Shown here piece by piece: positions 12,914-56,440 of a DNA stretch of 64,000 nucleotides; position 1 is the first letter of the stretch, and the number at the start of each line of letters is the position of its first letter. The notes beneath the pieces were generated by a model. The model was given only the letters and a program-made list of their open reading frames with translations, was not told where the DNA came from and searched no databases. Both the position numbers and the translations under genes were made by a program. Origin of the DNA: Arbacia lixula (taxonomy: Eukaryota; Echinodermata; Echinoidea; Arbacioida; Arbaciidae); assembly GCA_963669155.1 (NCBI GenBank), contig OZ022581.1, positions 13,060,857 through 13,124,856 on the forward strand, read 5' to 3'.

Positions 12914-12981
12914 CCCCCCCCCCCTCTCCCCCCTCTCTCTCTGTCTGTCTTTCTCTCTCCCTCCCTCCCTCCCTCCCCTCC

Positions 12982-13076
<95 letters not shown>
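12914..13076. repeat. C-run and (CT)n microsatellite
   Basis: A poly-C run at 12914-12924 is followed by an interrupted CT array to 13076. The serine/leucine-rich frames across it are artefacts of the dinucleotide. Confidence 0.95.
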
Positions 13077-13964: not shown

Positions 13965-14385
13965 TAGATAGATGAAACTAGAGGGAGTTCCGACAGGAGA
14001 GAGTGTATGTGATAGGAAAAGTATGAGAGAGTGGTAGAGAAAGAAATACAAAGACAGCAATGTAACAATTATGAGAGTAGTAGAGAAAGAGAAGAGAGAC
14101 TAATTTATATTAGGAAAAAAGAAATAGCATTACCAAGTTCAAGACAAATCGAGCGTTGTACTTTGAGAAAAGAAATGCGCAAGCAGATGATAAATAAATA
14201 ATAGCAACCCCGGCATGGTTCCTTTTCCACCCAGCCCTACTTCCCCTCCACGATTGAACTTGAACTTCTCACATTCTTAATTTGTTTTCTTATTCATTCT
14301 TAAGACTTATACGTCCTTTCTCTGCTTTGAACACTTTAACACCTTCTCCACCTCACGTCCCTCGCATTACTTCTTTTTTTTTTAT
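13965..14385. other. unassigned sequence
   Basis: Purine-rich at the left, ordinary A+T-rich sequence at the right. No feature was recognised. Confidence 0.4.
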
Positions 14386-14501
14386 CCCCCCCCCCCTCTC
14401 TCTCTCACACACACACTCACACACAGACACACACACACTATCTTTGTAAATCTCCTCTCTTCCAAACCTCTCCCCGCCTGCGCCCTCTCCATCTCATCCC
14501 C

Positions 14502-14568
<67 letters not shown>

Positions 14569-14603
14569 TCTCCCTCCCTCCCTCCCTCCCTCTCTCTCTC
14601 TCT
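14386..14603. repeat. C-run, (CA)n and (CT)n compound microsatellite
   Basis: Poly-C, then a short CA array (about 14405-14440), then a long CT array (about 14503-14602) with CCCT interruptions. Confidence 0.95.
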
Positions 14604-16496
14604 TTTATTCTCTCAAATTTCTCTCATTGCATAAATACAAACTCATCCGTCATCCATAACAAATAGCAGACTCTATCTCATTTGCATCCAATGTTGTTTG
14701 TTTTATTTTGTTAGACTTCAGTATAATAAAATATACAAGCTTCACTATATACTACTCCAGTGCATACATACATATATTCGTGAGTTGGTACATGTACATA
14801 CATTGCCGTCACGGGTGAAAGAAGGGGGTACGAGGGGCTACTAAAAACCATCATCGAACCAGTCACATGACAGCAATGGCTGATGTTCATTGGCCAGGAG
14901 GCTACCAGAGATGAAGACAGTGTGTAATAATGAATCGACTCCTTAGACAACAACACAACAGTCTTCATTCGCTTGCGATCTCTAAACTAGGCAGTCACGT
15001 GGTAAACTTCTCGTGATCACAAATGCAAGAGTACACAAATACATATTTTTTTCGTTCACACACATTAAACATTTATAAATACAAGCAACAGGCATTAATT
15101 TCAAAGAACATGATCAATTTGGGATAAGCTAGCACGAGTCTCTCTCAAGCGGTGTTGCACCCCCCAGAAAAAAAAGCACACCACCCAAACAATTGTTAAC
15201 TTCTAATATTGACATACTGGCATGATCTCCCAACAACCCCATCCCGAATCCAGCTCGTCCAATTGGACACTTCAATTACTGTAACACAATAGGGATTAAC
15301 CTAGCAGTCCTCAATTCATCAATTGCTCCTTTTCATCTGTTCTTCCCATACACACGGCCGCCCGCCCGCCAATGATTCCCATGGGTCTGCGTGCATTCTG
15401 CAGAAACACCTGCCTGCGCCGCCAAAAGGACGCAAACTCCGTTAATACTGATTAGTTGAATACTAGGACAATTTGCTTGTACCCTTCCCCTGGCGTATTT
15501 GTGCTTGCGCAAAGAACAAAACGATAAACGAAAGCCGACTGCATACTGTTACATAGCTCCAGGGTTGTTTTCTTTAATGCATAATCCATATAAAGAGTCC
15601 AATTAAAAAAAAAAGACAACTTTAGTATGATTAGCATGAATGCATACAAATTCCATTTATTTAACATGATTATTTTGCGTCAGATATGAACAAAAGCTTC
15701 AAATACATGTAGTCTAATGATACAATCCTAGGATTGAGAATAACATTTCTCTTTCGGCTGTCGAGGCCATGGATGCCGTTAACGTTTGAACCATTGGTAA
15801 ATGTAATTCATGTTGCTACATGTATAGGACATTTGCAAAAGTTTGCTAGAAAATAATGCTGGTTTAGTGCGGTTTTTGCTCCATCACATTCTACATTCCC
15901 ATTTATGGGAATGACTTTTTACCTCGAATAACAATGTGGCCATCTATGAAAATATAGACAGCTTATAGGAAGGGAACATGTATTTGTTCATGAAATCAAA
16001 TGTTATTGCAAAGACAAAATTGCTTAAAGGTATCAAAAACAATGAACAGAAATATATTACTACGAGCTAAATCATGTGCTATTAAATGAATTCATGCCTT
16101 ACAAACAGCTGCAAACTTGAAAATAATCATCTTCTATTTACAAAAATTAACAAAAGAAATGTTCATCTTATCAAATTCAATCTCTTTAAATTCATCTGAA
16201 AAAAAAACAATTACAAACACAGTTCATTACAACACATGAAGTGGAAAAACCACACAACCTTACTAAATGAAATACATAATCTACAATCTATGAGGTAAAA
16301 AATATGAACGAAATGAACTAAATAAAAAGGGCAGACTACAAAATTATACTTTAATACTGTAATCGTGTTGATGTCAAAAACTGCATAGAAAATAAAACTC
16401 TCTAGTAGATACATTTTGGTGCAGGACTAAATGTTCTCACTGGAGCGCGGAAAATGGGGGAACAATGGCATAAAAGGTTTTTTTGTTTGATCTGGT
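14604..16496. other. unassigned region downstream of the SALL gene
   Basis: A+T-rich with no recognisable coding frame. Around 15200-15450 the sequence is more mixed (CGGCCGCCCGCC, GGGATTAA, paired CAATTG-type blocks) and could be a control element. The TATTTACA near 16136 is a Pumilio-type TGTAAATA on the minus strand, which matters only if the 3'UTR reaches this far. Confidence 0.3.
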
Positions 16497-16516
16497 GGGG
16501 GGGGGGGGGGGGGGGG
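16497..16516. repeat. homopolymer G20
   Basis: Twenty uninterrupted G residues, a likely site of assembly or polymerase error and a potential G-quadruplex on the + strand. Confidence 0.95.
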
Positions 16517-18619
16517 TGTACCAGTCCACCATAATGCGGGTATGTTTCACATTTGATATCGGCACAGGCAGAAGGCCTTATTTGGATATGCATGGTTTAC
16601 CCCGCTCTTTGTATCTGCCTCATCATCAAAAGTGGTTTAAGGTGCAGACTCAGCGATAGATAGATAGATAGAAAAACGAAATGATCATCTAAAACAGTCT
16701 TGACAGTTTGGGAGCATCGACGGAAGCAGCAGAAGATAAAGGGAAAAAAACATGGATTCTCATTGGAAGTCCAAACCCGAAGGCCACACAGGCAACAAGC
16801 CCACAATTGTCTCCGCTTATCTATCATTTTTCCCACTTGTATTTTATTTTCATCGCGTCAATCCCACGATTCTCACCCCGCTCTGTGAGGGGAAAGTGAA
16901 GCGAAGTATGGATCTATCATAATGAAATAACTGGACAGAAAATTGAAAACGCCCGTTAAAGCCATCAAAAAGCTGATCTAATCAACGTGAGAGGAGCCAT
17001 TCAAAGTTTAAAAAACTTGCGGGGGAAAGAGGGGAAAAAAGTTTCGCGGGGTAAAAAAAAAATTGTCATATCGCAAATGTTAATGCCAGATCGTTGGCCT
17101 TGGAGAGTATGCGTTATGGCCCACGTCCATTTGTTCTTCCTCCCTCTCTATGTGTCTGAGGTCTAAAGTCAAAGTCCCAACCTCGAAGAGACATTGATCG
17201 GGAAAGGGTTCATAAAAAGTCCAACCCGGCAGATGTTAGCTAGATACCGTGTGTATATCGCACATTGTTTGCCGCGCACTCCTATCCGTCATATCTGGTC
17301 TGCCGGGCTTTTCCGAAATTGTATTTTCATAATGAAATTTGCAGGAAGTTTGGACAAGTGTTGAAGTGATTTTGATATTCCACGCTTGTCAAAAAAGCCA
17401 CCACGATAGACCCTCGAATTCTTCCAAAAGTTTTTGTGCCAAAAAGTATATGAGGGGAGAAAAAAAAGAGCGAATTCCTGTGTTGGCTTGAAAGAGGTTC
17501 CTGTTCGGAATGCGGCCCCGTTTGTTTTCATTTATTGTATGTATTAATTTTGTGGTTGACAGATTTTCCCACATTTTGTCACGAATGCCCCGCAAAATCA
17601 CAAGTTCATTCACCAACATTTCAGGATCTCGCTGCTTATCAACCCTAACAATAGCCTCTTTCGTTTCCAAATAAAAACATACGTATAACATGAGCAAATA
17701 CAAAACAATTTTATGTAAACGGAAAACAGTTGCGATAATCTATACCGTGTCTCACTATCTACAGCAGTTTGTTTCCACTAGATAAACGAAGCTCTTCAAT
17801 ACTGTATGGTTTGCACTTTTGTGTGTAATTCTGATCTGTAGTAATTCATCTCCATTAAAATGCTGTCCGATGAGAGGAAATCATAAACAGATGTAAAGAA
17901 CTGAAACAAGGAGGTACGACATTGTGACAATAATTCATGAAATACTGAGAGATAAGTCAACAAGGTATTATGTGGTGCTGAAGCAGGCAGTGTCAAGCTA
18001 CGATTCTCCCCTTCCCCCTCCTCACTCCATCTTACGGCTCCTACGATGATAACAGATCTGCAAAGAATATCTCCCTGAGACTTTGAGGAAACACTGATAA
18101 GACCTACCCCCCCACCCCCGCCCATCCTCACAAGGTTTACTGTACAACAGCAATACAAAGCTTAGCTCCTTTCTTCTCCCCACCCCTCCCTCCCTCGCCA
18201 CAACATACAATTTGAGTCCTCCCCTCCCCCCATCATGTAACAACACTCAATACTTTGTACTCTGAACGCACATAACCCGATGCTCGGTGAAGGAACATAG
18301 CTCGACGAGGTCTGACCAAACTGCTCCGAGATTAATTTCAAGCAGCCAAGATGCTGTTGGTATCATATGATCCTCAAAAGCTACATATGTACAGGTGGGG
18401 GCGGTGTGTGTAGCGAGGGGCATCGACACGGTCTGAACCACAAACCGCTGGCTGCTACTCAAAGCAACATAGAGGGGCACCTTCACACGCCCACCCCCCC
18501 CCCCCCCGCCCCATGTTTAAAACAGACCAATCAAAACCACTCTTCCTCTCCATCATGCAGTGTTCCGTTATTGCAACATCCTACCACACGAGTCCTACAG
18601 ATCAAGGGGGCATGACGAC
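16517..18619. other. unassigned region downstream of the SALL gene
   Basis: It contains C/G homopolymer runs (near 18486-18509), a purine/pyrimidine-biased stretch at 18000-18240, and a mixed-composition segment at about 17020-17480. A TTTATT at 17531-17536 would be an AATAAA polyadenylation signal on the minus strand. The frames of up to 120 codons have no known domain. Confidence 0.3.
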
Positions 18620-20846
18620 GTCTTTGAGTTACTTGATAACCATGCTAAATCTTACATTGCTAATATTTACAATTTACTATTAAGAACAACATCTGCGTGA
18701 TATCAGATATTCCTTTCAAAAGGTTTTCTTTACAATGACAAAGGGTCAACTTGACGTAAACATAGTACTATCAGTCCACTTTTCTGTTCTATAGTTACTG
18801 TATGGTGAAGATGATCACAAGAGAGGGGGTGAAGGGGGATGGGGGGGGGGGGGGGTCGTGGACCCAGGACTGATACTCATGGTGGAGTATCATACAGGGG
18901 AGTCAATGTATCACTGATCACAGACAAATTAGGTATTTAGAAACACTCTAATTGTCACAAAATCTGGTATCTTGTTGATAAGTAGGAATTTAAAGGCTAC
19001 AAAATTAAGTGGAGATGACATCAAGGTGCATATATCACAAAAAAACATACATAAACACTTAAAGACGGTTAGTGGTTTAGCTATAGAACTTCACTCTCTG
19101 TCATTCAAGACAACAACGTACACGGGTAGCACACACAATATCAGAGCAATTCATGGCTTGTTACAATATCACTATTCAGAACAGACCAAAGTTGGTTGCA
19201 GGAAATATCAAGATTTGTACAATAGATGAAAAAAGGTAGGTTATTTTTTTCTTAAATATGTAATATCAATCAGTCAACTACACTGTGAATAAATACCAAT
19301 TTGAAATCTGTACAAGGAAAGTCTCAAACATATTTTCTTGATCTTTCAGTATTTTCTTCTCTCTATCACATATCAAAGCCACAACTTTACTGCATCTAAT
19401 CTCTAATACAATTTCATTAGTAGCATCATAGATTCAATTCAATAATTTAGGTCCTAATATATAGTCATATTCTTTCTTTACACACTAATTCATTGACATG
19501 TTATATCACTGAGATAAAAAAAAATGTATATGTACAGAAATATGAAGGAAACTCATTTCACTTCTCCCCTTTCATTCTCGATCGACATGATTCACATAAT
19601 TAGGTTAAATTCTTTGGTTTTTCAGATCTTAGATGGAACATGGCGACAAGTATAACAAGCTTTTTTTTACAAGATTAAGTTACTCTGTAGCACAGTCACG
19701 GGTGGCATGATTCCAGGTCTCATAAAGTTATCAGCTGTACAGATGCTCAGCTTTTACGTAAAACCACAAAAAAATATTTATAGCCATGTCATCAAGTATA
19801 AAATGACATTTTGAACTTGAGAGATTTGACAGAGCCTGCAAAATCTTGCTCCTCTGCTTGATTTGGAGTCTCAAGATAATTTGTAAAGATACCATACATT
19901 CCATACATCCCTAACACACTGATTATTTGTTCTTGTTAAATGTCCACAATCATGACATGCAGCGAAATGAGGAGATCACCGAAGTCAATCGTAAATACAC
20001 CAAAACTACCGGTCCTTCATGTTATGTAATCCTATATTGATGGTAAAATTAATGACCAGAGATAGATGTTACAAGAATAAGAAAACTACAATTGATTTGT
20101 ACAAGTTGATCGTCACTGATAATGTTTTGTTTAATTCATATGTATAATGTTTAAAAGTCTCCTCCCAAACTATGGCCTTCATGTTATATTTTACACACAA
20201 GTCGCAGAAATCATCACAACTTTAGCAGTAACGACTCTCTTTCAATGTCACAGCCCAATATTAACAGGGGGTAAGTCTATTTCTCTATACAATTCCCTGT
20301 TTTACAAAGATGTTTGCATTTTGCTGGAAAATGCTTCAACTATTCACTAATATACTGATCCTTCAAGTGTTTTTAAAGTTCATATGATATTCATATTCAA
20401 ATAAGAGAAATATAGACAAGTGTAGTACGCAGAAAGAAACATATTAAATAAGACCCTGTTAAAACTCATTTGCCTCTTTAACAAAGTTTGTCACATTGGT
20501 TCTGAGCTTTTCAAAACCTTGTTGAAAAATAAGAAACAAGCACCAAACAGAACATGACTGACTCATGACAAACAGAAGAAATACCCTGATGGAAGCAACA
20601 AAGAAAACACATTGCCATTTTTTTCACTACATAATTCAATTTTGACAAACTAAAGAAATCTCCACTCGGAGAAAAAAATATGTGCGGTACAAAAAAACAT
20701 CGAAACCCAAGGTTTTGGAAGAAAATAATGGAAGCTCTCCCGACTAGCAGTCACCACGGACTCTCAATTTGTAAAATACAAGGTTTAATCAAGATTTGTC
20801 TTTAATGAAATAAAATGGTGGATCAAGCAAGCCCAAACAGAGAGCA
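18620..20846 (-). other. probable 3'UTR of the SALL transcript
   Basis: This is the sequence immediately downstream of the SALL stop codon on the transcribed strand. It is A+T-rich, free of recognisable transposons and without coding frames, as expected of a long 3'UTR. TTTAAT at 20801-20806 and 20783-20788 would be weak ATTAAA signals close to the stop. TATTTACA at 18664-18671 is a Pumilio-type TGTAAATA on the minus strand. The true 3' end cannot be set from sequence alone. A poly-G run lies at about 18840-18855. Confidence 0.35.
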
Positions 20847-23800
20847 TTATGTGCTCATTTGGGGCGCTACTGGTGGGGTTCTATCGGTGTGCCGTTCTAG
20901 CGTCATCTCCTTATTCTGGGCTAAATCTCGTTGGAGCGCAATCTCCCTATGCAGAGCTTCCTCCCGATAAAGGGCTATCTCCCGCGAGAGCGCCTCTTCC
21001 CTACTCGCGGCCATTTCTCGAGACATGGCCTCCTCCCGATTCAACTCCATTTCCCGAGATAGAGCTTCCTCCCTGTTTAACATCATCTTTTCCCGTGACA
21101 TTGCCTCCTCCCTGTTCAGGGCCATTTCCCTAGACAGCGCTTCTTCCCTATTCATCATCATTTTCTCGCGGGACATAACATCCTCCCTGTTGAGAGCCAT
21201 CTCCCTGGACAGCGCTCCTTCACGGTTCATGGCCATTTCCCGATTCATAGCCATCTCACGGGACAGAGCCTCCTCCCTGTTGAGAGCTATCTCGTGGTTA
21301 AGCGCCTCGTCTCTGCTCAAAGCCATCTCTCGGTGTGCCTCCGCCTCCCTGCTGATGCCTGCCTCACGGCTGCCTACCGATGGCGCCATGCTGTTCCTCA
21401 TGATGACGGAGCCCGAGTCCTGAAGGTGCATGCTGGTCGGCTGCTGGATGACCGAGATCTCGTTGGCCTTGGTGGCAGCCGCCGCCACAGCGAAGCCGTT
21501 GAGCAGGTGTGGGGGAGGGTAGTGGTAGAAGGCACCCTCTGCGAACCCTGGGTGCATGCCAAACAGGTCCCCACGGAAGATCTCGCCTTCCTTTGGGCTG
21601 ACAATGAATGGGGGTTCTACTGCGATGCGCCTTCCGCGCCGACCAGCTCCGTTCCACATGTGGGTGCCGAGATGCACCTTGAGGTTGCCCTTGGTGGTGA
21701 AAGCTCTGCTGCAGATGTGGCAGCGGAAAGGCTTCTCCCCGGTGTGTGTGCGCATGTGGATCTCCAGCGCACTATTGGTCTGGAACTGCTTACCGCAGAC
21801 GGAGCAGGAGTGCTTGAACTGGGTGCGTTTGTTGGCCTCCTCAGGAGAGACGCTCAGGCTGCGCTTCAGGGGCGGGGTCTGAGAGTTGGAGGAGCTCGTC
21901 TGCTGCAGGGGCAGCTCCTGACTGACTGGCCGCTTCGGGGTCGGAGGGAGCGGCGACATGGAGAGGACGGAGTTTGATGGAGAGTCGTACCTGGGCATTG
22001 GCATGTCCCGGATCTTGTGGGTTAGCATGTGCTGCTTGAGGTTGCCCTTCGTGGAGAAGCCCTTGCTGCAGACGTCGCAGCGAAAGGGGCGCTCCTTGGT
22101 GTGGCTGCGGTAGTGGATGTTGAGGGCGCTGGTGCAAGCAAAGACCTTCCCACAGAAGTGACAGGTGGTATTGGTTCTCACAGGGCGACGCCCACCGAGC
22201 ATGTTGGGAACACTCATCAGCAGACCAGCAGATGTCATGGTAGGCTTGACATCTTCTGGAAAGTAACCCTCGCGAGGGTATAATCCTGGTATATTTTCAA
22301 GCTCCTTAGAATAGGGAGGGATGTTTTCTTGAGGAGTGCCTTTGGGTCGCAAGTCGAGAGCTCCACTGGCGTCTGTTCTGTCATCATCCATTTTCATTTC
22401 CCCCTCTAGTTCTTCATCCACCATACTGGAGGAGACTGAGTTTGGCCCGTTCTGCTGATACATGGCCATGTTGATGTTCCTGTTCTCATCTTCAGACATC
22501 ATAGACTTGGTGTCAATGCTCTGTCCAGGGCTGGCAGCATTGGGAGACTCTCCATTAGCCATAGAACTCACCGGCTGCAGACCAAGAACACTTGGCATGT
22601 ACGACCTGTTTGAGATTTCTTTGTCCTCACTTGATGCGGTCTGCTCAGAGGAGTGGTTTTCAACAGAGCGGCTTTCAGCAGAATGGTTCTCGGCAGAAGG
22701 CGAGTTATCCTCTGATGGCAGAGCACCATCTTCTGGCTTGTCCCCCTCATGGAAGGAATCCTCAGGGACCTCACCTTCCTCTGGAGTCGGCAGGCCATTC
22801 CTCTCATCGACATCCATGTGGCTCTCCTCTCCAGGCTCTCCAACCTTGTCTACCTTCTCTCCATCCTCTCCCTTGAGCTCCATCTCTTCTGGCCTTGGTA
22901 CATCCACCTTGTGAGGAATGGTCATCCCCTCGGCAGCGTGCAAGCGCAGGTGCTGCTGCAAGACAAGCGGGTTGCTGAAGCGCTTCTCACAAATTGGGCA
23001 GTCATGCAGGATTCTGATGGGTCCCTTGCTCCTGTGAACAGCATAGTGGGTTTTGAGGTTGCCTTTGGTTGTGAACGACCGGCCACAGATCTTGCATTTG
23101 AAGGGACGTTCTCCGGTATGGGTGCGGTAGTGGAGTTGCAGAGAGCTCTTGCAGCTGAGAACCCGATGACAGATGACACACTGGTTGGGATCGGTGATTT
23201 TCTGCTCAATATTCTCAACCAGCTGTTGGAGCTTGGAGGTCTCAGAGGCTCGCATGCCCGCCTCAGCCAGGTTTGCTAGGGAAGGAGGTGTCTCTGGCTT
23301 GGTCAGCTCCATTTGTGCAGCACTTCTGGAAGACTCAAAAGGCATCATGCCATATTCACCATGCATCGGCATACGAGGGAATCCAGCGTAGGGGATCGGG
23401 AACCCGCCAGACATGGGGATACCTCCAGCAGAGACAATTGGGAAGACACTGGAGGCCATGGAGACATTGGGAGAGACGGATGCTTCACTCCTCTTGTCGA
23501 TGGGAGACAGACTACCTGCCTGGCTAGTCGATGGACTCTCGGTGTCTTCAGCGTGGTTCCTGTCCATGTTGCCGGAATGCTTCTTCTCAATTTGGTCCTC
23601 ATCAGGGTTGTGTCTGGACATGTCCCCTAAGCTGCCTTCAGATCCCCCAGGAGAGGTGCTCTTTGACGGCCCTTGAGAATGGAATGGATCTTCACCAGAG
23701 TATCTGGCATGGTCGCCGGGGAAGGTGGGCATTGGAACCTGGTGAATGGATGGTGGCTGGAGGGGCTGATCCATGAGTGGTGGGGTCGGTGGGTGGTGCC

Positions 23801-25132
23801 TGATGTCCATCTGGATGTGTGGGTAGCGGGACTGATGGCGCTGGAAGTGCACCTTGAGGTTCCCCTTGGTCGAGAACCGGTTCCCACAGATGTTGCACTT
23901 GAAGGGCCGCTCACCTGTGTGGGATCTGATGTGGATCTGCAGAGCACTATCGCTGCCAAAGACCTTGTGGCAGAATCTGCATTTGTGGCGGAAGAAGGGA
24001 TCATCAGCACTGAACTTGGGATCAAAGACCGACACATTGGGAGCCTTCCCTTTGTGCTGAGCTGACAGCAGACTCTCGTGGTAGGACAGTGGTGCAGGTA
24101 TTCCCAAAGGGTTGTGGGGTATGTGCCTGGTAGCGTGCTGCTGGAGCATTTCAAATGGAGACTTCTGATTGGGCAGGTGGAATGCTGGTGGTAAGGGTGG
24201 CAGGAGCCTTCCTTGAGCATGCATGGCCTCGATGGCAGACTGCTGGACAGCCGAGGCGGCAGCTGCTCCTGCCGGGGACAGGATGTGAGGCGGGTGGATC
24301 ATCCCTGGAATCGATGGAATCGGAACAATTGGTGCAGATGGAATGCTGGAGGTGGTGGAGGTGTTAGCACCTGAGGAAGCAGCAGCTTCGGAACCCTCCC
24401 GAGAGGGCTTCTCTTCATACTCCTGGGGCTCCTGACTTCCTGCAGAATCTTTAGAGTCCTTAGACTCCTGCTTTTGCTGCTTAGGTTGACCCTGCGGTTG
24501 CTGCTGCTGCTGTTGTTGTTGTTGCTGCTGTTGCTGCAGCTGCTGGTGTTGAATCTGCTGTCTCTGCTGCTGCGCTGTCAGGTGGTTGATCTGGTGTTGG
24601 ATGCTCTGGATCATGTGCAGCTGATGAAGGTGCTGCTGTTGGAGAGCGTACAGCTGCTCCTGGATCATCACCATGTCTGGGTGTCCAGGAACCATGGCAG
24701 ACTCACGAGGAAACTGTGCAACAGCGTAGGGTGTGTTCTCCAAGTTGTCCAGGGAGACATTGGACGGTGGTAGACTGGGATTCGGGCTTTGGTCGGACGA
24801 CCCTCCAGGCTGGTCCATGGGTGGTTGGACCTTGCCTTTCGATACGTAGTTGGGCTCGACGGATTTCCGGCCCTCCGGTGTGGCTGACCGGTCAGATGCA
24901 GTGTCCTGGTCTTTGTCTGACATTCTGCTGGTTTGCTCTTCCATCTCCTCCTGCCCCTCATTGAAGATCATCACCACCTGCTTCTTGGCGCAGCTCTGCT
25001 TGTGTTTGACAAAGTCTGCAAAGATGACAAACTCTCCTCGGCAGTTGCCGCAAACGTGAACATCCCCGATGACCTCATCGTGGTCTTCTGTGCTCATGGC
25101 ATCAAGAGGCTGGTGTGCGCCTTCTGACGAAC
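20847..25132 (-). CDS. SALL-like: spalt/SALL-like zinc-finger protein, large coding exon (5' partial)
   Basis: Spalt/SALL proteins are nuclear DNA-binding transcriptional regulators, mostly repressors, used in body patterning. The exon encodes 1427 complete codons from 25130 to the TAA at 20847-20849. Counting from its first full codon (Ser), I see a C2HC finger (C27, C30, H43, C47), a conserved glutamine-rich segment (151-186) used for dimerisation in the family, and Q13 (199-211). C2H2 fingers follow at 384-432 (two), 651-731 (three), 990-1038 (two) and 1109-1157 (two), with HTGE/KRPF linkers and the family phrase [14 protein letters not shown] at 924-929 resembles a CtBP-binding motif. GRRGRR (1163-1168) and KANEISVIQ (1221-1229) match the vertebrate SALL C-terminus. 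Residues 1258-1415 are hexapeptide repeats not known to me in SALL proteins. The open frame runs on to 25160 only through the upstream intron. The exon starts after a splice acceptor in phase 1, so the true start lies in an upstream exon; an in-exon ATG at 25095-25097 with a good context is the alternative. Orthologue numbering among SALL1-4 does not apply to an invertebrate. Confidence 0.96.
20886..21359 (-). repeat. coding hexapeptide tandem repeat (18-nt unit)
   Basis: About 26 consecutive units of consensus A-[LM]-[NS]-R-E-[EM] lie near the C-terminus of the SALL-like protein, with two units lengthened to seven residues (…SREKM). The charge pattern and lack of proline or glycine after the first unit predict a long charged helix. 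Human SALL1 ends differently after KANEISVIQ, so this is likely a lineage-specific addition. No frameshift occurs, and the stop codon follows after a short PQ-rich tail. Confidence 0.9.
21660..21806 (-). other. SALL fingers 8-9 (last C2H2 pair)
   Basis: This segment encodes the last zinc-finger pair, Cys-x2-Cys/His-x3-His twice, joined by HTGEKPF. It is followed by the GTHMWN and RRGRR residues typical of the family's last finger pair. All metal ligands are intact. Confidence 0.95.
22017..22163 (-). other. SALL fingers 6-7
   Basis: This segment encodes a finger pair joined by HTKERPF rather than HTGE, with complete C2H2 ligands and the STKGNLKQH phrase. An acidic, serine-rich linker separates it from fingers 3-5. 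Confidence 0.95.
22938..23180 (-). other. SALL fingers 3-5 (pair plus associated single finger)
   Basis: This segment encodes a standard pair (HTGERPF linker, TTKGNLKTH) followed about ten residues later by a third finger with C-x2-C…H-x3-H and the phrase [11 protein letters not shown]. This 2+1 arrangement is characteristic of SALL proteins and supports the family assignment. Confidence 0.95.
23835..23981 (-). other. SALL fingers 1-2 (first C2H2 pair)
   Basis: This segment encodes the first canonical pair, HTGERPF-linked, ending with the family phrase [13 protein letters not shown]. All eight metal ligands are present. Confidence 0.95.
24498..24536 (-). repeat. poly-glutamine tract (Q13), mixed CAG/CAA
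   Basis: Thirteen glutamine codons, mixed CAG and CAA, lie just after the conserved glutamine-rich segment (24573-24680). The mixed codons argue against a recent pure CAG expansion. The run is probably length-variable. Confidence 0.95.
24990..25052 (-). other. SALL N-terminal C2HC finger
   Basis: This segment encodes C-x2-C-x12-H-x3-C in a VHVCGNC…KHKQSC context. It aligns with the atypical finger near the start of vertebrate SALL proteins (HVCGRCCAEF…HKKNC). Metal-binding residues are complete. Confidence 0.92.
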
Positions 25133-25161
25133 CTACAGAGGGAGACACACAAAGAAACAAA
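25133..25161 (-). other. 3' splice site (acceptor) before the SALL exon
   Basis: On the minus strand a pyrimidine-rich tract (TTTCTTTG…TCTCCCTCTGTAG) ends in AG at 25133-25134. The following GT at 25131-25132 are the last two bases of a split codon, so the preceding exon must end in phase 1. This explains why the frame upstream of 25132 shows no SALL similarity. Confidence 0.85.
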
Positions 25162-28100
25162 TATTTAATTGCATTGTCACTTATCGGGCTTCTTTTTCAA
25201 AATAAAATCTGTAAATCCTCAATTGTAATATATACATCAACAGACAGTCCATTCTCACAAGTATGATAACAAGCAACTGCAGACACAACATGAATAATAA
25301 AGTATGAAGAAAGCCAACATATCTTACTGGACTTGCAAATGAACGAGGATGTGGGTGAAAAACAAAAATGATTACATTTGTTTTTTCTGTGTGCATATGT
25401 TGCTGGCACAGCATAATATTTGACAAGTGTCACAGTCACCACAAAATGGACCACTCAACCGATGCATTATCCTGACATTAACAAACATCGAACGACAGAA
25501 AATGTGCCATTCTGTTCACACCTCAGACGGTCTGAGCACTTCTACGATTAGTCGCGACCTTTAAGCAAGCAGCCACAAAAGGAAAAACAGCATTATCATT
25601 CCATAGGTTCTCTATTTGGCAGCTATGCAAACAAAGGATTCATCCTTGTCAACTTCTTGTGTAATTTTATTTCACTCGCTGATAAGAGAAATGCCCTGCA
25701 AGGAAACAACAGACAAAACCTCACTTCCTTGTCAAAACTCGTACAGACCCATCATGGGTTTTGTGTCAACAAGTTTTCTGATTGTTTCAGCAATTGCCTT
25801 ATATAGATGCTTCTTTTTCAATGCTAAGAAGTTGAAAGCACGGAACATCCATGAATACAAACATTCAAATTATGCACATGATCAACCCATAGGAATATCT
25901 GACATGCATATATTTAACCACGACTCCAGTAATAGCTCATGGAATGCAGAAGTTATTAAATAGAAAGACAGAAACGAATAATGAGGATTGTGTTAAGACA
26001 ATGAAGTTACATGCAGAAAATGTATTAATGAAGATGAATCATCTCTCTGAATAGTCACATGACATAAACTTACAGTTTTAGTAAATAAATGTGCACCACC
26101 CAAGGTTCTCACCAGAGACAATAGTAGTAACAATTCCACAATATACACAGACTAAATCGTTGCTTCTCTGAAACAGAAGTCAGCACATGAACTGAGCTTG
26201 CAGCGAGAACTTCAATCAAAACTTGACAAATTTCTTCAAACAATAGCTTCACCCCAGGGTCCAATTGGAATGCAGTCTGCTTTGGTTTTCCTTCCTATCA
26301 CGCGGTTGAGCTGGCAAAGGGCTGGGGGTCTGAGCGGCGGCGGGGGAAGCCTTCACTGTCGATGATGTGGCAGGTTCACAACATATCAGAGATTCAGTCC
26401 GCACAAAGGAATGGCTCATTCAAACGTCAGTCAAGTATGGCCGTGCCAAAGTGTAATCCATGGATGCAGTCATATCAGAGATAAAAAAAATCTACAGCAC
26501 TCGTCATTAGCTTTGTCAAAACTAAAGATAACATTAGTAGATGATGGTGTTCTCTTGAGGGAAATGATTGAACACCTAACAAGAAAGGAAGAGAATGAAG
26601 TCCTCCACTGATAGGGTTTATATGTGCATTTTTGTGGTATATTGCGCATTAAACCCCAAACAGACTGTCCGTTCAATGCTTGGAAGATCCCGTAGTGAAA
26701 CTACAGATATGCAGACGCATGAAATAGAAATCACTCAGCAGAATTGCCATAGTTTGGTAAAATCCTCAACTGGAGCAGAGATGTAAGTGTTTGCTGAGAG
26801 AATATCATCGCATTTGCGAGGAGCAGTCAGTGTGCACATTTAGGGCCACTGCCAGATTCTGATGATAACAATAATAATCAAACACTGGAGAGCCCCCACA
26901 ATACATAACATTATGACAGGCAAAGCCACTGCAATCTTTTGACGCTTCACCGCCAGTTGACAAAACGTAAATAGACATTTTTTTTTTTGATCCCCCGTTA
27001 TGAATACACGCCTGTGACGGGAGTGGATGGCTGAATGGTTTGGCTGTTCATCTCGCTAACTCGAGTGACACACTAAGCCCCCAAGGCACAAATTAATACG
27101 AGTGCCGCAGTGATGCCACAGATATGATCGCATCATTCATCAAATATTAAAGTGGTAGCATCAAATTCATCTAATCGCTTCAATTACTCCGTGGTAGCAT
27201 TTTGCAGCCACCCGCATTTACACGCCACTCATGGATGCAATATCATTTTCTGTTTAGTGGCTGATGTTTTATCTCGAGTGCCGATCACTTTAAATTCTCC
27301 ATTCCACATTTGTTGATTGAAGCAAAAGAGACATTTCAGCCAGATGAGAGTTGACAATAAAATGACAGGTTTGGTCTGAGAACAAACGTACATACTCACC
27401 AGAATAAGCCAAAAAACCAATGTATACATCTATCTACCGGTACCTGCAATTTATATCTGCTATTGTGCTGGTCACAATCATTTCTATTCGGTTTTGTACC
27501 CATCCAATTACAGAGAAGCCTATAAAAAATGACAACATGCCTCGTTAATGGCAACTTCATGACTCCTGTGCCCATTGACATTTACAATATCTCATCAATT
27601 TATCATACCTGGCATAAATTTGATGGCACTGCAGAGAATGTATTGCGAGCAGAGGTATATAATGACATTCTGTCTGGTTGATAATGGGGCCTACTCTCAC
27701 ACATTTCAGCTGTCCTCCCCTCCTCCTCCCACCCCTTCTCCTCTCTCTTTCTTTCTTTCTTTCTTCACTATCAAAGCTTTACCTACTTTAATCATTTTAG
27801 TGAGAGGCAATAAGTCATTCATAAAATGGTCATAACATTTACTTAGGCACGCATTATCATAAGCTTTTCTCCCTGTCAAATATGATAGATGTTTCATATT
27901 TTCTGAACAATGCTGGGAATAAAGGGTAACACCCTGCCATTTGGAAATGTAATCTATAATAGATATAATAAGCATACTTGATTCACACCCTAAAAATAAA
28001 CTCCGCACATTTTCAGGAAATAAAATGAGAATTATAAGGTCAAGTTTGTAACTACCCGATGGATAAACAGTGAAAATGGATCCCTTATCCCTAATGTATA

Positions 28101-43173: not shown

Positions 43174-44004
43174 TCAAATGAAGTCTTTAGAGATTTGTTT
43201 TTCTTCCGTCTAATATCAGCATATCACGTTATCAAGATTCTGTGTATGATCTTGGACGATTTAAAATTCTGTTCCCCCCCCAAAAAAAAAAAAAAAAAAA
43301 AATTAGTTAAATACACTAATGCTAATATCTTTGGATACTCATCACTTTGTTCAAAGGAACAAAGACAGAAGAAAAAATATGCAGAAAACAGAACGGCAGA
43401 GTTAAAAAAAAACAAAAAAAACTCAACTGTAATGTCGTATGCAAAATGAGAATCAAGTCTGGAAATAGAAGACTACAGCTCCAGTTATCTGTCTTGTTCT
43501 AAATGAGGCCTATACACCATCTATTATTACCATACCTACATGTAGTCTTGGCATGCAGACTCTATGACTGACCAACAAGTGTTTGTGTCTGCAAACTAAC
43601 ACCTGACGGCACTTGATTTTCAGAAATATGGCATTCTCAACAGGATGACAAAGAACGCTTTGCTTGGAGAGAGAGAAGCTTGCAAACTCCTTTAACAAAC
43701 ACAATAATCAAAAAGCCCTGAGGGAGGTTTCAGTCCTTGCCACCTTTTCTTGAGACATATTAAGAGGGATGTTCTTGGGAGGCAAGAAAAGATAACCAAA
43801 AGCCCCCCTTCCACAGGAGTAGAACAAACAGGATAATATTTGCATTCATACAATAGGTCACATCCCACCATAGAGCCAGTGTACATATTTACTTCATTTT
43901 ACCCTCAAAAGGAGGTTTGTAAGAACAAAAGTGAAACCAACATGTTATATGAATTAACAAAGTTACATAACAGTTTGCTTTCATTGTGGTCTTTTCTCCC
44001 TTTC
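43174..44004. other. unassigned sequence
   Basis: It contains an A-run (about 43282-43302). No feature was recognised. Confidence 0.4.
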
Positions 44005-44008
44005 ACTC

Positions 44009-44039
<31 letters not shown>

Positions 44040-44116
44040 ATCTCTCCCCCTCTCAGTCTCTCTCTCTCTTTCTCATTCTCTCTCTCTCTCTCCCTCGATC
44101 TCTCTCCCTCCCTCTA

Positions 44117-44150
<34 letters not shown>

Positions 44151-44204
44151 TCCCTCTGTCTCTCTCTCTCCCTCTGTCTCTCTCCCTCTGTCTCCCTCTC
44201 TCTT
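44005..44204. repeat. (CT)n microsatellite
   Basis: About 200 bases of CT with CCCT and CTGT variants. The 192-codon frame across it is an artefact. Confidence 0.95.
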
Positions 44205-45068: not shown

Positions 45069-45085
45069 TCCTCTCCCTCCCTCTC

Positions 45086-45120
<35 letters not shown>

Positions 45121-45335
45121 GTCTCCTCCTCTCTCTCTCTCTGTCTCTCTCTCTCTCTCTGTCTCTCTCTCCCTCTCTCTCTTCTTTCCATCTCCATCTT
45201 TCCCTCACCATTCCTGTCTCACTTTCTCACTCTCTCTACATAACTCCCTACCTGTCTCTCCTCTATCTACCTCCCCCTCTTCCCTCTCCCTCTCTGACTC
45301 TACCTCCCTCTCTTCCCTCTCTCTCTCTCTCTACA
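45069..45335. repeat. (CT)n-rich pyrimidine tract
   Basis: CT with CTGT units, grading into CCCTCT-type sequence. The frames here are artefacts. Confidence 0.9.
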
Positions 45336-53986: not shown

Positions 53987-54036
<50 letters not shown>

Positions 54037-54069
54037 CTCTCTCTCTCTCTCTCCCCTCTCTCTCTCTCT

Positions 54070-54134
<65 letters not shown>

Positions 54135-54167
54135 TTCTCTCTCTCTCTTTCTCTTTCTTCCTCTCTG
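53987..54167. repeat. (CT)n microsatellite
   Basis: About 180 bases of CT with CCCC and CTTT interruptions, directly right of the hAT-like insertion. Confidence 0.95.
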
Positions 54168-56440
54168 TCATTCTCTCCTTTTTCTTTATCATCTCCCTCC
54201 ATCTCCTGGTAAATCAATCTCTGTGCAACTTAATTTTCGACCAGGAAATATGCATTATCACATGGATGCATAATACAAATGTGTGATATGCACTGCACTG
54301 TTCTTCCCCATCTTATAATTGAGTACTTCAAGGAATTTCAGCAATTTCAATTCACACATTGTGTTATTCTGGCGATGATTTAACTTCCTGTTGTTCTCAT
54401 GATTGCACCCCCACCCCCCCCCCCCTCTCTCTCTCTCTATCTATCCTTGTCTGTCGAGCTATCTTCTAAACAAAACAGACTATGCACAGTTGTTGCCAAT
54501 AATGATAACAAAGCATATCTGTACCATAACAAACTGTGCAATATACAGTGCAACTCAACGCAATTCATTGTTTAATATGATAGCTTGTATTGGCAACACA
54601 GTAATAGGTGGCAATGTCAGTAACACATATAAAAATCAAGGAATTCAAGACATTACCAATCACAGCTGAACAAGTTTATGTCCATGTACATGCATCCTCA
54701 TAATCTTGTGTAGGAGTGTTTCCTAGATACTGCTACAATTCACATACAACTGCTCTTAAATGATTTATCAGCCAAGTGACAAAATACAATTGGAGGTGTG
54801 TAATATCATGGGAATTTGTGTAGGTCCGTGGTGATACAAAACCAATATACATGGACTTCCTCCTCTTTAGCTTGTAAATGACCAGCTTTCTAAGTAAATC
54901 ACTCAAATTGGTTATCAGCTTTCTCTTGAACTTTATCCCTTTAGACATGGATATGGAAAGTAATTAAGTACCCTTGAGAGCAATACTTTGGTCTGTTGCA
55001 TCAACATTACAAAAACAGCTTTATTGGTCATAGCAAAACTTTTTGAAATCAGTTGAGCGATGAAGGGCTTCCACGCCAGAATAAGAAGCTGTTCAAGAGA
55101 AAAGAAAACTTGGAACTCTTTTTTGATGCTTTCAGCTGAACTGAAGCCTACTTTCTCTTGCATCAAACCCCAGAAATGCCCCCTGTCAGTAAATCTCCTC
55201 AGAGGACATTTCCATAATCATAAATATTTTCTCAGCAGTTGACAATTGTCAGAGTATCGCCTAAACCCCCAGTTTTCAGAGGCCCCGCTTTCTCCAGATA
55301 CTTCCACCCCAGCCAAAGAATGAGCCCCCGAAATACACACCCCAACAAAAACAGAGCCTACCTGAAGACAAAAGCCCGTCTTTTGTGCCGGGAGAGAGTT
55401 GGGAGGAAATCAACACCGTCTCAAAATCAAATTTCATACTGTTTTCCATGCAATTTTGCTTCCCCAACTCACATCTAATTGCCACGGGTTACGCACGGGT
55501 TATGAAAGACGGGATGGAGCCAACAATAGGGATTAGGTCCAACCTTTGCTCTACAATTCCAGGGTGTTATTTGGGAAGGAGATAGGCCAGAGCTACGGCT
55601 GGCAACCCTACCAGGGCTCCTTCTTTGGAGGCTGAACGTTTTTTACGGAGGAAAGCAGTGAAGAGGGAAAATGAGGTGGAAATATAAACAGATTGGAAGG
55701 GGGGAATATAAGTATTTTAAGGAATAAAGCTATCAGAGGGCTAATCTAAACAGTGGTATTGTTGTATCGCGGGCAGGACAATGAATACCGTTAGATTCCC
55801 TCGGGCCCAAATGGAATATGAGTGACACCACTAACTGTGTCCTGGAATGAAACCCCATTCACACAATGAAAATAAGTTGAAATAAAGAGTGAATTAAACC
55901 CCGAAAGAATTTCAATCGTATCCTTGCAGAAGCATCAACATAGATTTTACTTGATGTCATTATCTTTTAACTGAAAAAAAATGCACCCAAAAATGTTTTT
56001 TGCAACATCATCCTTTTTATTGAAATATTTTGTTTGTTTAAAATGAATCCTGAAAAAAAACTCTCCCAAAAATAGAAACAGCCGGAGGCATTTGAAAGAA
56101 AATAAAATTTGTGATTATTCAACTTCAAATGTAAGTAACATATCCAAAGAAAAATACATATCACATTTCCTAGCAAAAAATATGCAAACTCACAGTGAAA
56201 AACAAATACATATATACATATGAATCCTCTTTGTCATTAAAAAAACACATCCAGTTTTTGACAATTTCAAGTGGGAACAGCTTTCAGTGCAAAACCTGCT
56301 ATTCTCGCAAACCCTGGGAACGGGGTGGGGAAAACAGAAAAATATATCAACATACACATAGAGAGGGAGGCAAGACATTAGGAGGTATGGCTGGAATCAT
56401 GAGAACACTGTGTAATTAGAGATGGAAAATTGTTTGATGC
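54168..56440. other. unassigned sequence
   Basis: It contains a C-run plus short CT array (about 54408-54438). A unique mixed segment at 55250-55600 is free of repeats. No gene was recognised. Confidence 0.35.

Follow-up and report, generated by a model that had tools for sequence, protein, structure and literature searches.

A SALL transcription factor gene of the sea urchin Arbacia lixula ends in a long array of hexapeptides, which raises the question of whether this tail is a working part of the protein or tandem-repeat DNA that happens to lie in frame. We analysed a window of 64,000 nucleotides of contig OZ022581.1 (forward-strand positions 13,060,857 to 13,124,856); coordinates given without a contig name refer to this window. 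The first-pass annotation had described about 26 hexads following the motif KANEISVIQ on a SALL protein, and the open frame, the identity at a lag of six residues and a six-frame scan all bear this out. Its placing needed only small shifts, as the repeat occupies 21374-20895 of the minus strand (about 160 residues) rather than 20886-21359 (158 residues).

A single open frame of 1449 residues on the minus strand (20847-25196) carries the zinc fingers, KANEISVIQ and the hexad tail together. Read from the N-terminal side, it contains the C2HC finger ZF1 (24990..25052), a poly-glutamine run of 13 residues between ZF1 and ZF2 (24498..24536), the pair ZF2 with Sal-box FSTKGNLK (23835..23981), the triplet ZF3 with FTTKGNLK (22938..23180), the pair ZF4 with FSTKGNLK (22017..22163) and the pair ZF5 with FTTKGNLK (21660..21806), giving nine C2H2 fingers in four clusters with four Sal-boxes. 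KANEISVIQ follows at 21444..21470, then the hexad array (20895..21374, open-frame residues 1275-1434), a non-repetitive C-terminus of 15 residues (20850..20894) and the stop codon TAA (20847..20849), all on the minus strand. A scan of 14001-20847 on the gene strand places the first exact AATAAA after the stop at 17536, about 3.3 kb away, which may mean a long 3' untranslated region.

The first exon lies outside the window. A degenerate pattern for the 12-residue N-terminal NuRD motif matched once in 607 Mb, on the same contig and strand, with no control matches; this exon (MSRRKQAKPQ..) is found 57 kb upstream at C6:13143068-13143097. It ends in a good donor whose phase, read by eye, fits the acceptor before open-frame residue 22 (CTGTAG followed by GTTCG), so that the predicted splice would make 20847..25132 of the minus strand the coding part of exon 2 and the predicted protein 1452 residues long.

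The protein thus has in common with the SALL family the NuRD motif, the C2HC finger, the poly-Q run between ZF1 and ZF2, the four Sal-box finger clusters and [KT/KA]NEISVIQ. A PDB sequence search gave its best E-value to Sal-like protein 4, and chains of Sal-like 4 and Sal-like 3 were among the matches. No finger pattern was found after ZF5 in the SALL frame, in agreement with the deuterostome pattern without a C-terminal ZF6. An excerpt of PMC5892016, the source also of the ZF1 and poly-Q layout, gives that pattern and describes the domain order of SALL proteins as highly consistent across bilaterians; it drew on echinoderm sequences, whose species its main text leaves unnamed. With 150 of 1338 first-look candidates scored, a genome search with ZF4-ZF5 returned 25 matches that reached E 1e-10 or better, those beyond the gene itself being partial and at most 37% identical; the two best of these, read as candidates for a second SALL gene, proved to be generic C2H2 fingers without a Sal-box. 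Judged from its sequence, the gene is an intact and otherwise standard SALL gene on the minus strand.

What departs from human SALL4 is the C-terminus. That protein shares the motif as KTNEISVIQ and then continues into a different, non-repeat end of about 60 residues, finishing FPHFLEENKIAVS (peptide table of PMC9813410), whereas the Arbacia protein carries the 160-residue hexad repeat in its place. The earlier statement that vertebrate SALL C-termini do not carry such repeats holds for human SALL4, the one protein compared by means of that table. The open-licence PMC literature searched yielded no SALL protein described as having a C-terminal repeat, and the excerpt of PMC5892016 uses the word "repeat" once, for a telomere factor.

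The array follows the consensus A-[LM]-[NS]-R-E-[EM], with 26 anchor dipeptides listed and 25 full units tabulated. Position 1 is Ala in 19/25 units, position 2 Leu or Met in 21/25 and position 3 Asn or Ser in 21/25; the most regular positions are 4, which is Arg in 23/25, and 5, which is Glu in 23/25 and Asp in the other two, and position 6 is Glu or Met in 16/25. Two inserts of one residue each (around MMM and MML) shift the hexad register. The identity of the tail with itself at lag 6 is 0.48, a value reached by none of 1000 composition shuffles. Longer orders are superimposed on the hexad, namely a 12-residue alternation (lag 12; unit lags 2 and 4) and a super-unit of 25 residues or 75 bases (period-75 arrays), two copies of which lie at 21215-21141 and 21140-21066 of the minus strand. 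When 324 stop-free stretches of 96 residues over all six frames were ranked by 6-residue periodicity after subtraction of 1-3-residue periodicity, the ten highest all overlapped the SALL-frame repeat, followed by two from the antisense of the repeat DNA. None of the protein's best stretches in a Pfam search falls in the tail.

The tail is predicted to be helical. Single-sequence AlphaFold, run without an alignment on the last 327 residues, returned one helix of 154 residues (model residues 161-314; 20889..21350, minus strand), with ten-residue mean pLDDT values of 91-98 over model residues 171-310 and of 79 and 58 at its two ends. As a control whose composition is not matched to the tail, the antisense frame of the repeat DNA had a mean pLDDT of 36.8, with 149/150 residues below 50. 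Since the zinc fingers in the same fragment also scored below 50 and no alignment was supplied, the confidence of the helix is weak evidence. Mean helix propensity agrees with the model: the tail averages 0.321, compared with 0.725 elsewhere in the protein and 0.612 in the best other 160-residue window. A helix rises 1.5 angstrom per residue, which makes 154 residues about 23 nm.

The tail had been proposed to form a long charged alpha-helix. The helix stands as a prediction, but charge does not account for it, and this bears on the reading that the tail is a monomeric single alpha-helix (SAH) acting only as a stiff spacer, the role that the first-pass annotation named first, with no self-association. 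SAH domains, such as those of myosin levers and the CAF-1 KER region, resemble the tail in their long predicted helix, low complexity and many Arg and Glu residues, and the unbroken helix prediction, 41% charged residues and a six-residue alternation of charge all speak for the spacer. Known SAHs, however, consist mainly of charged residues joined by salt bridges at spacings of i,i+3 and i,i+4, as described in excerpts of PMC5812594 and PMC5347031. The tail has fewer charges, many Leu and Met residues (Leu/Met/Ala 58/160) and no enrichment at these spacings. Opposite-charge pairs at the four SAH spacings number 2, 8, 2 and 0 vs shuffle means of 6.4, 6.3, 6.3 and 6.2; acidic-to-basic i+4 alone matches or slightly exceeds chance (8 vs 6.3, reached by 126/500 shuffles), and the other three are depleted. 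Judged by spacing counts rather than by the published Waggawagga score, the tail thus lacks the surplus of opposite charges three and four residues apart that marks a single alpha-helix. Like-charge pairs at i+3/i+4 spacings are depleted as well, and charge therefore neither zips nor splits the helix. We consider the spacer doubtful.

Self-association through an ordinary heptad coiled coil finds no support in the periodicity of the tail either. The hydrophobicity power at 3.5 residues is 0.37 vs a shuffle mean of 1.01 and is reached by 347/500 shuffles, nothing in the tail stands out between 3.5 and 3.67 residues, and its helical moment, a measure of amphipathicity, lies below that of 300/300 shuffles. 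The hydrophobicity peak falls instead at six residues (power 18.9, reached by 0/500 shuffles), with a weaker two-residue signal that 37/500 shuffles reach. On a helical wheel this order appears as three apolar stripes (Leu, Ala, and Met or Glu) separated by stripes of Glu, Arg and Asn or Ser. As Glu is as frequent as Met at position 6, the stripes are weakened.

The reading we prefer, with a probability of roughly 0.55, is that this SALL transcription factor, ordinary in other respects, carries an alpha-helical arm that is translated and has been conserved for a long time. Three hexads, or 18 residues, would make five turns of a helix with 3.6 residues per turn and would set the Leu, Ala and Met/Glu stripes 120 degrees apart along its length. 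The arm would then be a straight, stiff rod, about 23 nm long if all 154 residues were helical, whose weak seams would let it pack sideways into stacks or onto partners instead of forming a two-stranded coiled coil. Its likeliest job would be to hold SALL molecules together or to engage a partner C-terminal to the last DNA-binding fingers; among possible jobs we infer lateral self-association first, partner docking second and pure spacing third. The tail would then add to the poly-Q region, which is thought to do such joining in SALL proteins: an excerpt of PMC8490708 describes nuclear bodies formed by SALL1 and a possible dimerisation of SALL proteins through their Gln-rich region. If so, a core developmental repressor would have gained a large and old structural module in one lineage without losing its fingers. 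A natural hexad repeat of 160 residues would also be a test of period-six helices without salt bridges or a heptad seam, and the SALL tail offers a clean deletion test.

The constraint on Arg at position 4 and Glu at position 5 (23/25 each), which would point outward between the stripes, also suits a different use of the array. A helical or flexible arm could dock one partner, a co-repressor or the cytoskeleton, through the avidity of repeated A-L-x-R-E, any contact between SALL molecules being incidental. No partner is known, and a PDB search with the tail gave nothing below E 0.7, its two matching chains (E 0.70 and 0.88, one of them the CEP85 coiled coil) being taken as noise. This reading seems rather unlikely to us.

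A further version of self-assembly, outside the heptad and hendecad classes, would be a three-seamed helix lattice aiding SALL nuclear bodies, or, more speculatively, a natural assembly built wholly of hexads, which the authors of the alpha/beta coiled coils predicted but did not find (excerpt of PMC4786415). The tail resembles those proteins, exemplified in the same excerpt by Tcar0761 and its MATKDDIAN nonads, in a repeat length that heptads cannot absorb and in the fixed position of a small Ala within the hexad, ahead of polar, Arg and Asp or Glu residues. The strict beta-layer motif [aliphatic]-A-T-K-[polar]-[DE] has no match in the tail; a relaxed form has 10, and in 8 further hexads the first place is taken by a charged residue. 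Unlike the alpha/beta coiled coils, the tail is modelled by AlphaFold as a monomer of plain helix, and this together with the missing strict motif leads us to rate an assembly of alpha/beta type low. Self-assembly in either of these two forms is, overall, unlikely.

The substitution pattern within the array supports the arm as a translated and old part of the protein. Free drift of the units would let residue-changing and silent differences accumulate at like rates. Over all pairs of the 25 units, pS is 0.86 and pN 0.34 in the SALL frame, a ratio of 0.39, in tests that treat the units as independent, which they are not. The other five frames give 0.68, 0.80, 1.03, 1.47 and 1.49, so that the SALL frame is the lowest. 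Random codon redraws from the gene's own usage yield pS of 0.82 ± 0.04, which means that the silent sites of the units are saturated. The two super-units are sharper, with pS 0.82 vs pN 0.057 (Fisher p 8e-8, from rounded counts), and in neutral simulations of the super-unit 0/400 runs at each of two divergence levels gave pN so low, although these simulations reached mean pS of only 0.41 and 0.61, below the observed 0.82. Saturated silent sites with residue changes held down indicate a coding tail, mostly old and constrained as protein; from this residue-level constraint, the tail is very probably translated. Residue pairs near offset 30 have pS of 0.07-0.34 and fall within the bottom eight of 364 similar block pairs (median pS 0.83), so part of the array is recent, copied or converted. 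On these substitution data the tail is mostly old and not a young satellite, with one segment more recently exchanged.

These figures weigh most directly on the idea of a functionless expanded minisatellite that is open and translated by chance. The genome does carry dispersed 18-base minisatellites, part of the array looks recently exchanged, and a tail past the last domain may tolerate expansion. The young minisatellites of the same genome share with the tail an 18- or 36-base period and open frames. A 36-base array at C17:21049016-21049816 (L003/L004; at least 25 copies, 375-residue open frame) served as control and shows the opposite pattern, with pS 0.012 and pN 0.090; unlike the tail, its copies are nearly identical and its changes mostly nonsynonymous. 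With a ratio of 0.39 overall and so low a pN in super-units at saturated pS, the minisatellite reading is improbable. Still less probable is that splicing removes the repeat, wholly or partly, from some or all transcripts, as donor-like sites at 21377 (directly before the repeat), 21367, 21259 and 21004 might suggest, because constraint kept to the stop codon means that the repeat is not always removed, which leaves room for some isoforms without it.

The search for relatives covered the genome of 606,990,701 bases in 590 contigs. A protein search that used the 207-residue tail as query returned 68 matches with E of 10 or less, led by the gene itself (3.6e-116) together with its own antisense; the best match after self had E 1.7e-6 at 27% identity, and a short one reached 43% identity at E 4.2. 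Eight of the 14 non-self loci listed were translated on the matching strand, and all eight were tandem repeats of other units (ARQSRL, DRRASL, LNRGSPLSMSLV and a 13-residue unit). No second copy of the tail was among the matches listed, and at the DNA level the gene itself was the only hit. The unit ARQSRL is read from a near-perfect 18-base minisatellite on C6, C15 and C20 (L007, L008, L009, L011), open for at least 100 residues; unlike the tail, these arrays have near-perfect translated copies.

Several minor features of the window were noted along the way. The antisense of the repeat is itself open for 150 residues on the plus strand (20971-21423), reading ISRDxASSLF-like units; with pN/pS of 0.68 to 1.47 in the antisense frames and the AlphaFold control above, it appears to be a side effect of the 18-base period. 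Rfam at the gathering threshold returned nothing in the 64,000-nt window. Long CT/AG microsatellites at 12933-13075, 14503-14603, 43995-44203, 45071-45332 and 53987-54177 yield many spurious Ser-Leu repeat open frames. Elsewhere in the assembly, contig C590 carries COX1, whose codons we compared with bovine COX1: AAA stands at Asn in 2/2 cases, TGA at Trp in 12/12, and ATA at Ile in 6/9, Leu in 2/9 and Val in 1/9, never at Met. This usage indicates the echinoderm mitochondrial code. Flatworms also read AAA as Asn, but the deuterostome-like SALL gene speaks against a flatworm origin.
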